Assembly (NCBI GenBank): GCA_017457085.1
Contig: JAFTID010000039.1
Coordinates: 1-57,252, forward strand
Source: Phascolarctobacterium sp.
Lineage (GTDB): Bacteria; Bacillota; Negativicutes; Acidaminococcales; Acidaminococcaceae
DNA: 57,252 bases
Reading direction: 5' to 3'
The notes under the pieces were generated by a model. The model worked only from the letters and a program-made list of their open reading frames with translations. It did no database searches and was not told the DNA's origin. The stretch's first letter is position 1. Each line of letters opens with the position of its first letter. Position numbers and translations under genes: made by a program. Positions 13,411 to 57,243 of this stretch are shown here, piece after piece.

Positions 13411-13486
13411 TGGTGATCCACCCGCGACTCGAACGCGGGACACCCTGATTAAAAGTCAGGTGCTCTACCGACTGAGCTAGTGGATC
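13411..13486 (-). tRNA. tRNA-Lys (UUU)
   Basis: A 76-nt cloverleaf in minus-strand sense: acceptor GATCCAC/GTGGATC, D-arm AGCTCAGTCGGTAGAGC, anticodon loop CTTTTAA (anticodon TTT), T-arm CCGCG-TTCGAGT-CGCGG, and encoded CCA at 13411-13413. Confidence 0.97.
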
Positions 13487-20196: not shown

Positions 20197-21072
20197 TTAT
20201 TTTTTCTTTTGCATTAAAGCAGGTACTAAGTACAAGCCACAACCAATTGCTGCCATGTAAGCAGGAATCAAGGATTGTGCTTGACTGTCGCCGTGGAGAT
20301 AACCCAAAGCAATTACAATCATCAGGAACACGCCTTGAGCAACTTGCAAACGTTTGGGACTAATACGTTTATTATTACGGTCGCCTCTAGCTTCAGTAAA
20401 TGCTGCCGCACGAATTTCCGGCAAGAAAATAATGAAGGTTGCGCACATAATCCAAACGTAAACCATAGACAGGTTTTGTACCAAGAAGTTGAAATCTGCG
20501 AAGAAGCAGGTAGCCAAGGTCAAGCCTGCCAAATACCAGCTACGGAAGTAGCCACCGGGAACTTGGGTTTCGATAGCGTAAACGGTAGCGGTGATGAGAG
20601 GATACAGCCAGTAGCCATCGTGTCCTAACCACGCAGAAATACCGATGATAATTACGTTATCTCCAATTTTATGGATAGAGCCGGAAGTTCTGTTAAGCAA
20701 ACGCAAAACAAAGAGCATCCACATTACTACCATAATATTGCCTTCGCCCAGATAAGCAGTCGCCGCCATAGTGAGAACGCCACCGATGATACCACCAAAT
20801 TTACGGTCAGGGTCAAGCTCTTGGGCAATCATGTAGGAGAACAGGAAGCCAAGCGCCGCACCAACGCCGGTAAACGCAGCATCCCACACTTCAACATTTT
20901 TCATCATTTCCCAAGCAGTTACCGCCACCATGGCAAGAACAGCACCAGCAACCGCCATGCGAGTGGTGTTGTCTTCTAAATCAATAGGTCTGCCCAAGCC
21001 GATATACGCGCCAACGCCAGTAACGTCTTCAATGGCTTGGTAACCAGCATACTTATTACTTTTTTTACTCAT
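20197..21072 (-). CDS. Polytopic membrane protein, unknown function
   Basis: A 291-residue protein with roughly eight hydrophobic segments and soluble ends (N-terminal KSNKYAGYQAIEDVTGVGAYIGLGR split by a polar stretch; C-terminal ...LVPALMQKKK). I do not recognise the family. ATG 21072 is chosen because GAGGG lies eight bases upstream. It heads an operon with the cyclophilin and GIY-YIG genes and is divergent from the pan operon. Confidence 0.75.
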   Translation of the reverse strand: MSKKSNKYAGYQAIEDVTGVGAYIGLGRPIDLEDNTTRMAVAGAVLAMVAVTAWEMMKNVEVWDAAFTGVGAALGFLFSYMIAQELDPDRKFGGIIGGVLTMAATAYLGEGNIMVVMWMLFVLRLLNRTSGSIHKIGDNVIIIGISAWLGHDGYWLYPLITATVYAIETQVPGGYFRSWYLAGLTLATCFFADFNFLVQNLSMVYVWIMCATFIIFLPEIRAAAFTEARGDRNNKRISPKRLQVAQGVFLMIVIALGYLHGDSQAQSLIPAYMAAIGCGLYLVPALMQKKK

Positions 21073-21126
21073 TTCATCATCCCTCGTATAAAAAATTATA
21101 ACTGATTCATTATACCACAAAATAGT

Positions 21127-21155
21127 TGACAAACAAAACTCTTTATAATATTATC
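21127..21155 (+). promoter_or_regulatory. Promoter of the pan operon
   Basis: TTGACA (21127-21132) and TATTAT (21150-21155) with a 17-bp spacer, 200 bp upstream of panG. A minus-strand -10 box with an extended TG (TGGTATAAT, at about 21116-21108) for the divergent membrane-protein gene lies close by. Confidence 0.75.
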
Positions 21156-21161
21156 TTAGCC

Positions 21162-21324
21162 GTGAGTTATCGTTGAGTGGTATCTTTGCGAGCCATATCA
21201 ACTTGCCAAAAGGCAACTCATGGAAATTTAGAGTCAATAATCGCTTGGATCAATCTATGTTATGACCGGGACGAGACGCAATAAGGGATAACTATGCGCA
21301 TTTCGGGTCGAAGTGCGCTTTTTT
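21162..21324 (+). promoter_or_regulatory. Structured leader RNA with terminator ahead of pantothenate genes
   Basis: Between promoter and panG lie about 190 nt of leader. The 5' part can fold as a three-way junction: TGAGT/ACTCA (21164-21168, 21217-21221), a bulged stem GTTGA-TGG/CCA-TCAAC (21173-21203) and TGCC/GGCA (21205-21216). A second bulged stem is GTTAT-CC/GG-ATAAC (21258-21291). It ends in GCGCATTTT/GAAGTGCGC (21295-21303, 21310-21318) plus six T. This layout suggests a riboswitch or attenuator. Tandem bulged stems upstream of pan genes recall the published pan RNA motif, but I cannot confirm the match. Confidence 0.7.
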
Positions 21325-21355
21325 ATTGCCTCTTTCCAAGCAGAAAGGAAATGTA

Positions 21356-22213
21356 ATGAAAATTGGTATCATCGGTGGAGGTAAAGTAGGCTGTTGTTTG
21401 GCAGAATATCTGCAAAATCATTTGGTTGGCATTACGGCATCAACTTCTGAAAAAAACCAACAGTTAGCAAAGCGCTTTCACACTTCAAGCACTACCACAG
21501 CTGAAGTTGTTGCACAAGCAGAAGTAATTTTATTAACTGTTCCAGACAGGAAGATTGGTGTGGTAGCACAAGAAATTGCTTCTGCTCAGGAAGTTTCCAG
21601 TAAAATCTTCCTGCACTGTAGTGGCAGCTTAGGTCTTGAACCCTTGCAAGCCTTGGCAGAAAAGGGTGCTCACTGTGGAAGCATGCATCCCTTGCAAAGT
21701 TTTGCAGGAGGAACGACTAAAGTACAAGGCGTTTATATGGCAGTTGATGGTGATGAGCCGGCGCAGGCTAAAGCAAAAGAAATCGTTGAGCTTTTAGGTG
21801 GTAATAGTTTCCACGTCCCTGCAAAAGAACGTGCAGCCTACCACGCAGCAGCATGTTTTTGCTCTAACTATGCAGTTACCATAGAAGCCCTTGCGCAAAA
21901 ACTAATGAGTCGTTGGACTGGTAGCGAAGAAGCTTCTTGGCAGGCATTACTTCCTCTTTTTAAGGGAACAGCTACTAACCTACAAAACACAAGCAAAGCA
22001 GGCAATGTCCTTACTGGACCAGTTGCGCGTGGGGATATCAACACCATTGAAAAACACCTACAAGCCTTACCTAATGAATATCTTTCTATTTACAAATCCT
22101 TATGTTTGGCGACCACACAACTTGCATTATCCAACGAAACTATTGACGCTCAAACTGCACATCAGCTCAAAAATCTTTTGAAGCTGAAAAATGTTCAAAA
22201 TTCGGAGGAATAA
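21356..22213 (+). CDS. panG: Rossmann/DUF2520 protein, probable ketopantoate reductase PanG
   Basis: A 285-residue NAD(P)-binding protein: N-terminal Rossmann motif IGIIGGGKVGCCLAEYL, then LLTVPDRKIGVVAQE, HCSGSLGLEPLQAL and SMHPLQSFAGG, and a C-terminal helical DUF2520 domain (AAYHAAACFCSNYAVTIEAL). PanG-type ketopantoate reductases belong to this group and replace PanE in some bacteria. Being first in a panG-B-C-D operon with no panE nearby, it probably supplies the reductase step. ATG 21356 has AAGGAA upstream and is placed right before the Rossmann strand. Confidence 0.85.
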   Translation: MKIGIIGGGKVGCCLAEYLQNHLVGITASTSEKNQQLAKRFHTSSTTTAEVVAQAEVILLTVPDRKIGVVAQEIASAQEVSSKIFLHCSGSLGLEPLQALAEKGAHCGSMHPLQSFAGGTTKVQGVYMAVDGDEPAQAKAKEIVELLGGNSFHVPAKERAAYHAAACFCSNYAVTIEALAQKLMSRWTGSEEASWQALLPLFKGTATNLQNTSKAGNVLTGPVARGDINTIEKHLQALPNEYLSIYKSLCLATTQLALSNETIDAQTAHQLKNLLKLKNVQNSEE

Positions 22214-22214
22214 A

Positions 22215-23054
22215 ATGGCAGAAAAACAAGTTACCATTGCAACCATCAAAGAAATGAAAAAACGAGGCGAGCCTATTACTATGATTACCGCCTACGATTT
22301 TGCAATGGCACGCAACGCAAACGAAGCAGGCATTGAAATGATTTTAGTTGGCGACTCTGTAGGCAACGTAATGTTGGGTTATAGCTCCACTGTTCCTGTA
22401 ACTATGGATGAAATGATTCACCATACAAAAGCAGTAATGCGTGGCAATAAAACAGCTTTAGTTGTAGGCGATATGCCCTTTATGAGTTATCAAGCCAGCA
22501 TCGTAGAAGGAATGCATAACGCAGCACGCTTCTTAAAAGAAACTGGTTGCACTGCAGTAAAATTAGAGGGCGGCAGTGAGGTTTGTGAATTAGTTCAGAA
22601 ATTAACACAAGCAGGCATCCCTGTTGTTGCCCATATTGGTTTAACACCTCAATCCGTAAACCAATTGGGAGGCTTTAAAGTACAAGGCAAAGACGTTGAA
22701 GCCGCTAAAAAACTCATCAGCGATGCTAAAGCTTTAGAAGAAGCAGGTGCTTTTGCTTGCGTATTGGAATGTGTTCCTGCAGCATTGGCTAGTAAAATCA
22801 CCCAAGAGCTTTCCACCATGGCTACCATAGGCATTGGTGCAGGTAATGGTTGTGACGGACAAGTTCTAGTTTGCAACGACTTGCTTGGCGTAAGCGATGG
22901 CTTCTGTCCTAAATTTGTAAAGAGATATGCAGATATCCATTCCATTACCGTCAATGCAGTTAAAAGCTATATTAATGAAGTTAAGGATAGAAGTTTTCCG
23001 GCTCCGGAACATACCTTTAAAATAGACGATACTGTTTTAGAAAAATTGTATTAA
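22215..23054 (+). CDS. panB: 3-methyl-2-oxobutanoate hydroxymethyltransferase
   Basis: A 279-residue enzyme that makes ketopantoate from ketoisovalerate and methylene-THF. Signatures: MITAYDFAMARNANEAGIEMILVGDSVGNVMLGY split over the active site, GDMPFMSY, VKLEGG, HIGLTPQSVNQLGGFKVQG and IGIGAGNGCDGQVLV. GGAGGAA precedes ATG 22215, one base after the panG stop. Confidence 0.97.
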   Translation: MAEKQVTIATIKEMKKRGEPITMITAYDFAMARNANEAGIEMILVGDSVGNVMLGYSSTVPVTMDEMIHHTKAVMRGNKTALVVGDMPFMSYQASIVEGMHNAARFLKETGCTAVKLEGGSEVCELVQKLTQAGIPVVAHIGLTPQSVNQLGGFKVQGKDVEAAKKLISDAKALEEAGAFACVLECVPAALASKITQELSTMATIGIGAGNGCDGQVLVCNDLLGVSDGFCPKFVKRYADIHSITVNAVKSYINEVKDRSFPAPEHTFKIDDTVLEKLY

Positions 23055-23071
23055 TAAATAGAGGACACAGA

Positions 23072-23926
23072 ATGAAACTTATAAAAACTGTCGCAGAACT
23101 GCGTGAAGAAGTTGCCCTTGCTAAATCTAAGGGTGAAGCTATTGGTTTAGTACCCACTATGGGAGCGTTGCACGAAGGTCACGCTTCCCTTATCAAGGCT
23201 GCAAATATGGAAAACGATTGTGTAATCGTCAGCGTTTTTGTCAACCCGACACAATTTGCTCCCAATGAAGATTTAGATGCTTATCCCCGCACCTTAGAAG
23301 CAGACTGCATTCTTGCAGAAAAAATGGGTGCTGATATTGTCTTTGCTCCTTCTCCTAAAGAAATGTATCCCAGTGAAGATGATACTTGGGTAGAAGTTAC
23401 TGGCGATATTACCAAAGTTTTATGTGGACGTAGTCGCCCAATTCATTTCCGTGGCGTTACCACTGTTGTCACTAAACTCTTTAACCTCGCACAACCTGAC
23501 CGTGCTTACTTTGGGCAAAAGGATGCTCAACAAGTTGAAGTGCTGAAACGTATGGTAAAAGATTTATTCTTTAACATCCAATTACGCATTATGCCAATCG
23601 TCCGCGAAAAAGACGGCTTGGCAAAAAGCTCCCGTAACACTTATTTATCTAATAAGGAAAGAAGTGCAGCTTTAGTTTTAAACAACAGCTTGAAAGTTGC
23701 ACAAAAACTTTACCAACAAGGTGAGCGTAGTAAAAATGCTCTTATTTCAGCAGTCATCGAAGGCATTCAGGCAGAACCTTTAAGCAATATCGATTATGTT
23801 GAAATCTATGCTTTGCCAGAGCTTAAAGATGCAACCAACAGCTTGCAAGGCAGTAACCTTTTGGCAGTTGCCGTTAAATTTGGCACCACACGCTTGATTG
23901 ACAATGTGGTTTTGGAGGATAAATAA
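23072..23926 (+). CDS. panC: Pantothenate synthetase
   Basis: A 284-residue ligase that joins pantoate and beta-alanine with ATP. HIGH-type motif in [14 protein letters not shown], then [44 protein letters not shown] and the KMSKS-like KSSRNTYLS. It lies 17 bp after panB; its stop overlaps the panD start by one base. Confidence 0.97.
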
Positions 23927-24309
23927 TGCTTTATAATATGTTCCATGGAAAAATTCATCGTGCTACTGTTACTGAGGCAAATTTAGAATATATGGGTAGC
24001 ATTACCATCGACAGCGAACTTTTAGAACTTTCCGGCATCCTGCCCGGTGAAAGAGTACAAATCGTAGATAACAATAATGGCAACCGTTTGGAAACCTATG
24101 TTATTGCAGGCGAACCAGGTAGTGGTGTAATTTGCTTGAATGGCGCAGCTGCTCGTAAAGTTTTAGTTGGCGACACCGTAATCATCATCGCCTACAGCAT
24201 GATGACCGAAGAAGAAGCCAAAAGCTTCGTGCCTAAAGTTGTTATGGTAGACGAGCATAATCACCCCATTAAGGTACGCGGTACCGAACTGGCTGGCGAA
24301 ATTGGCTAA
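23926..24309 (+). CDS. panD: Aspartate 1-decarboxylase precursor
   Basis: A 127-residue pyruvoyl enzyme that makes beta-alanine from aspartate. The self-cleavage site is the Gly-Ser in [10 protein letters not shown], with further motifs [28 protein letters not shown] and [14 protein letters not shown]. The ATG at 23926 overlaps the panC stop (TAATG) and has GGAGG seven bases upstream; an internal ATG at 23938 is possible but less supported. Together with panG, B and C this gives a full route to pantothenate. Confidence 0.96.
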
Positions 24310-25682: not shown

Positions 25683-25703
25683 AAAAACTTTATGCAAGTT
25701 TTT
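25683..25703 (-). terminator. Possible AT-rich terminator of thiH
   Basis: Arms AAAAACTT and AAGTTTTT around TATGC (25683-25703) overlap the thiH stop codon. The stem is all A/T but one G-C pair, so it is weak. Confidence 0.35.
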
Positions 25704-26910
25704 AAACAAATATATAATCTGCCATTACAGGCTGCAGCCCCCGCCCCTCAAGTGCAGTGAAAATTGTCTCCAAACTACGCCCGTCCTCTATTGCAAACTG
25801 CTCATCTCCAAGTCCACTGCCTCCGTGGCTACCAATACCCGTACTTACGCCTGCAGAAATCTTGTTAGCGCAAATACTCATCAAATTATCGCGCACCCTT
25901 GCACATTCACGACTGGAAACCGTTATGCTAGCGTAAGGCAGGAACAAACGGTAGGCACAGACAATTTGCAGAAGCTGTCTTTCCCCAACATCAAGAGGTT
26001 TAATCTTGTCATTGTTAATTATGGGGCGCAAACGTGGGCAGGACAAAGCAATTTCTGCGTGAGGGTACTGCTTTTGCAAAAGCATAGCGTGTACGCCAAC
26101 GGCGAAGGCATCACGACGAAAATCATCCAAGCCTAAAAGCACCGCCAAGCCTACGCCACGCATTCCTCCTCGTAACGCACGCTCCTGTGCGTAAAAACGA
26201 TAAGGAAAACAACGCTTATGTCCTGCCAAATGAAGCTGTCCGTATTTTTCGGAGTTGTAGGTTTCTTGGAACACAGTCACGTAATCTGCACCACACTGGT
26301 GCAAATAGGCGTACTCCTCGCTGTTGACAGGGTAAATTTCCAAACCAACAACCTTAAAATATTTCCGTGCCAGCTTGCAGGCTTCGCCAATGTACTGCAC
26401 GTCGGACATCTTCCTGCTTTCGCCAGTTAGAAGCAACACTTCCTGCATACCTGTTGCAGAAATTGCCTGCATTTCTCGCTCCATCTGCTCCGCGTTTAGT
26501 TTTGCCCGTTGAATTTTGTTATGGCAATTAAAGCCACAATACACACAATAATTTTCGCAGTAGTTCGCCAGATACAAAGGCGTAAAGAAAAGCACGTTGT
26601 TGCCAAAATATTTTTGCCGTTCCTTTTGGGCAGCTTGGGCCATTTCTTCCAGCAAGGGCAACGCCGCCGGAGAAAGGAGCGCCCCAAAATCTGCAAGAGT
26701 TCGTTTTTCGCAGCGCAACGCCCTACGCACGTCAGCTTCCGTAAAATTTTCAGGTTCATACTCCGCCCGCAAGGCAATTACCTGCTCTAGCATATCGCTT
26801 GCTAAAACTTCCATTCCCTCTTGGTATTCCAAATAATCTGCCACAAGATTTTGCGCAGTTTGACGACTTTCTTCATTATATATAGTAGTGTTGAAAAATT
26901 TATCTTCCAT
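25702..26910 (-). CDS. thiH: 2-iminoacetate synthase ThiH (radical SAM)
   Basis: A 402-residue radical SAM enzyme that splits tyrosine to give dehydroglycine for the thiazole of thiamine. The cluster motif is CENYCVYCGF (CxxxCxxC), followed by LLTGESRKMSD, YPVNSEEYAYLHQCGADYVTVFQETYN split in two and LGLDDFRRDAF. The use of ThiH and not the oxidase ThiO suits an anaerobe. Last gene of thiSFGH, 11 bp after thiG. Confidence 0.96.
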   Translation of the reverse strand: MEDKFFNTTIYNEESRQTAQNLVADYLEYQEGMEVLASDMLEQVIALRAEYEPENFTEADVRRALRCEKRTLADFGALLSPAALPLLEEMAQAAQKERQKYFGNNVLFFTPLYLANYCENYCVYCGFNCHNKIQRAKLNAEQMEREMQAISATGMQEVLLLTGESRKMSDVQYIGEACKLARKYFKVVGLEIYPVNSEEYAYLHQCGADYVTVFQETYNSEKYGQLHLAGHKRCFPYRFYAQERALRGGMRGVGLAVLLGLDDFRRDAFAVGVHAMLLQKQYPHAEIALSCPRLRPIINNDKIKPLDVGERQLLQIVCAYRLFLPYASITVSSRECARVRDNLMSICANKISAGVSTGIGSHGGSGLGDEQFAIEDGRSLETIFTALEGRGLQPVMADYIFV

Positions 26911-28907: not shown

Positions 28908-28934
28908 AAAAAAGAAGCTGACAACGCAGCTTCC
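28908..28934 (-). terminator. Terminator of the TPP riboswitch
   Basis: Arms GAAGCTG and CAGCTTC (28914-28920, 28927-28933), followed by TTTTTTG in minus-strand sense. It lies directly after the aptamer and is the likely off-switch. Confidence 0.85.
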
Positions 28935-28947
28935 AAATTTTAAATCT

Positions 28948-29029
28948 TTTCCCTACGTTGGCATTACCCATATCAGGTTCACGGGTCGAAGTTCGCAACT
29001 TCCTCTCAGCCTATTTATAAGCTCCCCAA
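28948..29029 (-). promoter_or_regulatory. TPP (THI element) riboswitch
   Basis: The minus strand reads GGGGAGC, then GGCTGAGAGGAAG, GACCCGTGAACCTGAT and GGGTAATGCCAACGTAGGGA, the conserved thiamine pyrophosphate aptamer in order. It precedes thiSFGH and should shut transcription off when TPP is plentiful. Confidence 0.96.
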
Positions 29030-29049
29030 CAATATTTAATTGCAATTTC

Positions 29050-56823: not shown

Positions 56824-56899
56824 GGCCCATTAGCTCAGTTGGTAGAGCACCTGACTCTTAATCAGGGTGTCGTAGGTTCGAGGCCTACATGGGTCACCA
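56824..56899 (+). tRNA. tRNA-Lys (CUU)
   Basis: A 76-nt cloverleaf: acceptor GGCCCAT/ATGGGTC, anticodon loop CTCTTAA (anticodon CTT), T-arm with GGTTCGAGGCC, encoded CCA. First of a five-tRNA cluster. Confidence 0.97.
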
Positions 56900-56903
56900 A
56901 TCT

Positions 56904-56978
56904 GGCCGGTTGGTCAAGCGGTTAAGACACCGCCCTTTCACGGCGGTATCAGGGGTTCGATTCCCCTACCGGTCACCA
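56904..56978 (+). tRNA. tRNA-Glu (UUC)
   Basis: Acceptor GGCCGGT/ACCGGTC, anticodon stem CCGCC/GGCGG with loop CTTTCAC (anticodon TTC), encoded CCA. Confidence 0.97.
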
Positions 56979-56984
56979 TAATAC

Positions 56985-57060
56985 GGTCGCTTAGCTCAGC
57001 TGGGAGAGCGTCTGCCTTACAAGCAGAATGTCGGCGGTTCGATCCCGTCAGCGACCACCA
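56985..57060 (+). tRNA. tRNA-Val (UAC)
   Basis: Acceptor GGTCGCT/AGCGACC, anticodon loop CTTACAA (anticodon TAC), encoded CCA. Confidence 0.97.
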
Positions 57061-57085
57061 TTTTCCATGTAACCTCATATTGTTT

Positions 57086-57162
57086 GGCCCGGTGGTTCAG
57101 TTGGTTAGAATGCCGCCCTGTCACGGCGGAGGTCGAGGGTTCGAGTCCCTTCCGGGTCGCCA
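57086..57162 (+). tRNA. tRNA-Asp (GUC)
   Basis: Acceptor GGCCCGG/CCGGGTC, anticodon stem CCGCC/GGCGG with loop CTGTCAC (anticodon GTC), discriminator G, encoded CCA. The GTC anticodon is the substrate for queuosine and for GluQ at 4703-5662. Confidence 0.97.
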
Positions 57163-57167
57163 AACCT

Positions 57168-57243
57168 GCCTCGGTAGCTCAGTTGGTAGAGCAAGGGACT
57201 GAAAATCCCTGTGTCCACAGTTCGATTCTGTGCTGAGGCACCA
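57168..57243 (+). tRNA. tRNA-Phe (GAA)
   Basis: Acceptor GCCTCGG/CTGAGGC, anticodon stem GGGA/TCCC with loop CTGAAAA (anticodon GAA), encoded CCA. The cluster may continue past the window edge. Confidence 0.96.

Follow-up and report, generated by a model that had tools for sequence, protein, structure and literature searches.

PyrR-binding attenuators are protein-controlled leaders in which short bulged stem-loops and a terminator stand before a biosynthetic operon, and terminator-type vitamin riboswitches (e.g., TPP) combine a conserved core, an antiterminator strand that shares bases with that core and an intrinsic terminator, placing both synthesis and import under end-product control. The pan RNA motif (RF01749), reported by Weinberg et al. 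in 2010, consists of two tandem stems with two bulged As each, located upstream of pan operons, of which the original report names panB, panC and aspartate decarboxylase operons only; its discoverers read the simple, tandem, near-symmetrical hairpins as the binding site of a dimeric protein (PMC2864571). The literature we searched yielded neither a ligand nor measured regulation for this motif.

Here, we describe a pan leader from a draft genome of Phascolarctobacterium sp. (Acidaminococcaceae, Negativicutes; assembly GCA_017457085.1). The window, i.e., the whole stretch of DNA analyzed, is the 57,252-nt contig JAFTID010000039.1, in which the leader sits between a divergent gene (20197-21072, minus strand) and a panG-panB-panC-panD operon on the plus strand (Table 1). 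The panG product passed no NCBIfam cut-off, and its best named relative (82% identity) comes from Phascolarctobacterium sp. RGIG8666; it carries DUF2520 and Rossmann-like domains, the domain make-up of PanG. PanG is the ketopantoate reductase of B. subtilis (YkpB) (PMC11487621). The divergent gene, which adjoins the pan promoter, encodes an apparent membrane protein of 291 amino acids without a Pfam or NCBIfam match. An identical copy of the pan-panG region lies on a 5.5-kb contig (C88) of the same assembly; we rejected it as a second pan locus, since identical DNA in the same gene order is probably an assembly overlap or duplicate. Elsewhere the window holds an ordinary TPP riboswitch (28932-29038, minus strand; 68.3 bits) with a ThiH-like gene (25702-26910) further along the same strand, a single tRNA gene (13414-13486, minus strand) and a cluster of five tRNA genes at its end (56824-57240, plus strand).

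Table 1. Positions of leader elements and pan genes in the window
Feature	Position	Strand	Basis or remark
Promoter-like site TTGACA-17-TATTAT	21126-21154	+	11/12 consensus matches; transcription start predicted at ~21161
P1 helix, 5' strand CCGUGAGU	21160-21167	+	fold and exchanged-partner test; directly at predicted transcript start
pan hairpin 1, two bulged As	21172-21202	+	extended by local fold; Rfam start 21174
pan motif per RF01749	21174-21278	+	40.2 bits
Small hairpin UGCC-AAAA-GGCA, third arm of junction	21204-21215	+	fold
P1 helix, 3' strand ACUCAUGG	21216-21223	+	fold and exchanged-partner test
pan hairpin 2, UCG-CUUGG-A-UCA ... UGA-CCGGG-A-CGA	21241-21274	+	bulged As 21249, 21271
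Predicted antiterminator, 5' strand CGAGACGCA	21272-21280	+	nascent-length folds, permutation test; overlaps hairpin 2 basal strand and pan tail
Predicted antiterminator, 3' strand UGCGCAUUUCG	21295-21305	+	common to 5' arm of terminator
Intrinsic terminator, 10-pair stem 21296-21318 and T6	21296-21324	+	
panG, predicted ketopantoate reductase	21356-22213	+	DUF2520 and Rossmann-like domains
panB	22215-23054	+	TIGR00222, 344.6 bits
panC	23072-23926	+	TIGR00018, 361.4 bits
panD	23926-24309	+	TIGR00223, 175.5 bits

An initial annotation had compared the leader to the pan motif, with a new motif as the other reading. The first of these held: an Infernal match to RF01749 spans model positions 1-92 of 92 and exceeds the gathering score (40.2 versus 36.2 bits), and no other Rfam family, including TPP and other riboswitch classes, rose above its gathering score between 20900 and 21600. 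We therefore rejected a new motif. The match lies directly 5' of panG-panB-panC-panD, upstream of panB, panC and panD as members of the family are, and on every feature that could be tested the leader is a genuine pan-family member. It is an ordinary copy of an already-known, ligand-orphan motif.

The remaining architecture in that annotation, which marked 21162-21324, the structured part of the leader only, was likewise borne out. Its strong promoter matches the consensus at 11 of 12 positions; its leader of about 190 nt compares with about 195 nt from the predicted start to panG; and its compact three-way junction, second bulged stem-loop (hairpin 2) and intrinsic terminator before panG appear in that order in the predicted fold of 21158-21325. 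This fold reaches -49.9 kcal/mol against -41.1 ± 3.7 for shuffled sequences (z -2.36), and was equaled by 3 of 200 shuffles. In most members of the Acidaminococcaceae the -10 element lies 18-21 nt from hairpin 1. Both hairpins of the window carry two bulged As in tandem, as in RF01749 (PMC2864571), but the copy differs from the model in a P1 helix that closes hairpin 1 and part of the linker, and in an extra small third hairpin that was seen only here and in one congener. A GUC/GAC helix (21233-21235 with 21275-21277) lengthens hairpin 2 of the window, with a bulge on the 5' side. Many members of the family have GUCAAUA ahead of hairpin 2, and the helix itself does not vary, which leaves covariation nothing to act on.

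Counted at E <= 0.001, pan occurs in 38 of the 61 genomes in the relatives set, in 197 of 380 from the class and in 152 of a 398-genome sample of the phylum. Two congeners lack leader and operon alike (no pan match, no panG and no panC), and four further family members have panC with pan undetected, where weak matches can be lost; one of these, G010, sits near G023, which has pan. The 225 pan loci with enough flank reduced to 163 non-redundant loci, across which the two hairpins persist together with their bulged As, the conservation among relatives on which the initial annotation had staked its reading. Because these loci were gathered with the Rfam model, the conservation counts lean toward that model; independent evidence comes from the variety of pair types. 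Pairs of hairpin 2 are standard in 94-100% of cells, with one pair at 77%, mostly in two or more pair types; in hairpin 1, pairing is less strict (72-98% standard pairs) and the pair types are more numerous. The bulged As are kept in 160-163 of the 163 loci; the fitting rule favors an A at the 3' bulge of hairpin 1 and at the 5' bulge of hairpin 2, whereas the 3' A of hairpin 2, which fitting did not impose, is invariant, and the 5'-bulge A of hairpin 1 is present at 160 loci.

The P1 helix, on which the three-way junction rests, is absent from the Rfam model, which begins at hairpin 1. In the Acidaminococcaceae the 5' flank, whose first bases lie close to the predicted start of transcription, base-pairs with the linker 3' of hairpin 1, and the two strands vary by genus (CCGUGAGU/ACUCAUGG in the window, GCGUAAAAUUUGGC/GCCGGGUUUUACGG at locus L029). 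When true partners were compared at fixed geometry with partners exchanged between loci, pairing was stronger for the true ones in the Acidaminococcaceae (-9.52 versus -5.68 ± 0.92) and in other Negativicutes (-6.40 versus -4.06 ± 0.39, with -4.86 as the lowest of 40 permutations), but did not differ significantly in the rest of the phylum (-3.35 versus -2.86 ± 0.31). A second measure agreed with this result, and a cruder test with free geometry showed a slight signal overall. We rejected P1 as a general feature of pan, given the lack of support for it outside the Negativicutes; within that class its partners covary, and it is well supported as a lineage-limited extension.

The transcription-attenuating plan proposed in the initial annotation extends to the family as a whole, with a terminator and a predicted antiterminator as conserved features of pan leaders. 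An intrinsic terminator follows pan within 130 nt at 133 of the 163 loci (median 19 nt), compared to 2-6 in shuffled downstream DNA. At these 133 loci the pan tail, taken as the last 14 nt of pan plus 3 nt, pairs with the 5' arm of its own terminator at a mean of -10.6 kcal/mol, against -9.42 ± 0.17 with the arms of other loci and -4.2 with linker segments; none of 200 permutations was as low as the true partners. Typically a tail ACGGAAGG faces an arm GCCTTTCGG, and the Acidaminococcaceae differ on both sides (tail CGAGACGC, arm GCGCATTTCG). Within the Negativicutes other than Acidaminococcaceae the excess is weak, with 7 of 200 permutations as good. Folds of the growing transcript in the window keep hairpin 2 standing until the 5' arm of the terminator emerges; at transcript ends 21308-21312 the minimum-energy fold is the antiterminator, which sequesters the hairpin 2 basal strand, and at 21318 it is the terminator. 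The hairpin 2 fold and the antiterminator are close in model energy (-38.2 to -40.6). Together, these data suggest that the pan tail and the 5' arm of the terminator would form an antiterminator mutually exclusive with the core and with the terminator, and make it a well-supported prediction that the leader works as an attenuator. Since the antiterminator takes the basal strand of hairpin 2, stabilizing that hairpin would favor termination. Counting against the antiterminator, the purine bias of the pan tail may have another origin, e.g., descent from a Shine-Dalgarno sequence.

At some panT genes (L015, L125 and L141) the Shine-Dalgarno sequence coincides with the pan tail: the core finishes with GGAGG immediately ahead of the coding region, and the leader has no terminator. 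Three more loci, L233, L236 and L238 of family f96, have the same layout with unclear start codons: their pan tail reads GGGAGG, and the panT-like frames lack an AUG at the expected start and would need AUA, AUU or another non-AUG start. The purine-rich tail is, as predicted from these layouts, an antiterminator strand in one setting and a Shine-Dalgarno sequence in the other, which would give a stabilized hairpin 2 a second route to lower expression.

The genes beneath pan connect it to both synthesis and uptake of vitamin B5. Genes were labeled by BLAST to the window proteins and to scanned representatives, with PanF assigned by TIGR02119 and SBF, OPT, BioY and Pan_kinase by Pfam. Synthesis genes come first after pan at 129 of the 163 loci (panG 77, panC 27, panB 22, panD 3), and transporters at most others: PanS-like BASS proteins at 12, PanT at 11 (six alone, three behind BioY and two behind BirA), PanF at 5 and OPT at 2, with 4 of other kinds. 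The closest PDB chains to the ECF S component after pan are 4rfs_S and 6zg3_C, the S components of solved ECF-PanT transporters. The regulon found here thus adds PanT, PanF, PanS-like and OPT transporters to the operons named earlier (PMC2864571). Some pan-led panC-panD operons extend into birA and coaX. The panS-panC-panD cluster corresponds to a pantoate-salvage operon reported elsewhere (PMC6593275). At five loci BioY and PanT, or BirA and PanT, place biotin and pantothenate genes under one leader, and at another pan is followed by an amidohydrolase-family protein and then BirA. The OPT-family transporter after pan at three loci of family f129 is a candidate for the import of pantothenate or of a compound resembling pantetheine.

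Nine genomes that carry pan ahead of PanT or PanF gave no panC by TIGR00018; these are drafts in which non-homologous pantothenate synthetases could exist, and the count leaves out G600, which has pan and no panC. Eight of the nine are at least 95% complete and the ninth 77%. Five also lack panB, another three have PanB-like proteins, and the least complete has a below-cut-off fragment. Because pan precedes a B5 importer in genomes without panC, this distribution suggests that its signal would be pantothenate or a product made from it, such as a later CoA metabolite, and not pantoate or beta-alanine. With synthesis and import genes under one element, repression would be expected when pantothenate is plentiful.

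We propose that the leader probably acts as a pan transcription attenuator giving end-product feedback on panGBCD, a role that fits the presence of pan before both synthesis genes and importers. While the sensed compound is in short supply, the pan tail and the adjoining basal 3' strand of hairpin 2 would pair with the 5' arm of the terminator, and RNA polymerase would read through the resulting antiterminator into panG. With ample pantothenate or a compound made from it (phosphopantothenate, pantetheine or CoA), the two bulged hairpins would be stabilized as a unit, so that hairpin 2 would retain its basal strand and the terminator would form. Family membership, the conserved terminator, complementarity of tail and arm that tracks the locus, and a fold switch that depends on transcript length are the computed basis of this scheme; we infer from them that binding switches expression off, in response to pantothenate or a later compound. 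As proposed, the leader resembles TPP-type riboswitches in its end-product control over synthesis and import, and in its core, core-sharing antiterminator strand and terminator, but it differs from them in being a ligand orphan with a much simpler core and no sequence or model relation.

We infer, too, that the pan RNA senses its metabolite directly, and here a protein partner is the main rival. A dimeric RNA-binding protein that tracks pantothenate or CoA status could bind the near-identical hairpins and either choose between antiterminator and terminator or block the Shine-Dalgarno sequence, in keeping with the discoverers' view of these simple, nearly symmetrical tandem hairpins and their bulged As (PMC2864571). 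The platform and regulon data fit such a protein equally well, and PyrR-type leaders likewise set short bulged stem-loops and a terminator before a biosynthetic operon. In contrast to those leaders, no protein partner of pan was found here, and the locus has no Rfam match to a leader of that kind. The genes beside pan include no obvious candidate for such a protein; BirA recurs there but is a DNA-binding regulator. Furthermore, pan persists in small auxotroph genomes with a sole transporter beneath it, and its core sequence is strongly conserved over many families, as in an aptamer. None of these points is decisive, and we regard a protein partner as rather unlikely.

A switch sensing pantoate, ketopantoate or beta-alanine, which would switch expression on or off to keep both branches of pantothenate synthesis in balance, is improbable. 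Most pan copies do stand before synthesis genes, and the PanS-like transporters at 12 of the 163 loci have a BASS relative that binds pantoate (PMC10645422). Against it stand the nine panC-less genomes that have pan ahead of PanT or PanF, of which five lack panB as well; there, pantoate or ketopantoate would carry no meaning as a signal, and beta-alanine would reveal little about B5. That the leader is a constitutive element, whose structured 5' end and leaky terminator fix the expression level or stabilize the mRNA, is most improbable: its role as an attenuator in this organism is predicted, but aptamer-like bases are conserved over many families, the antiterminator tracks between loci, and one core is joined to two expression platforms (terminator and Shine-Dalgarno overlap).

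Returning to direct sensing, we tentatively suggest that pan could be a riboswitch for pantothenate or CoA level, i.e., a composite two-hairpin aptamer (with P1 added in the Negativicutes) that exerts terminator or Shine-Dalgarno control and is kept in B5 auxotrophs. If so, pan would be the missing vitamin B5 riboswitch. For a motif that has been a ligand orphan since 2010, the comparison narrows the list of ligands to pantothenate or later products, predicts that abundance of the signal turns expression off, identifies the antiterminator bases and points to auxotrophs in which the importer alone is under pan. Constructs from the Negativicutes should include the P1 helix, and the narrowed ligand list and named bases make a direct ligand test short and cheap. 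This copy is itself of less interest than the question of what binds pan, which is now narrower and open to test.
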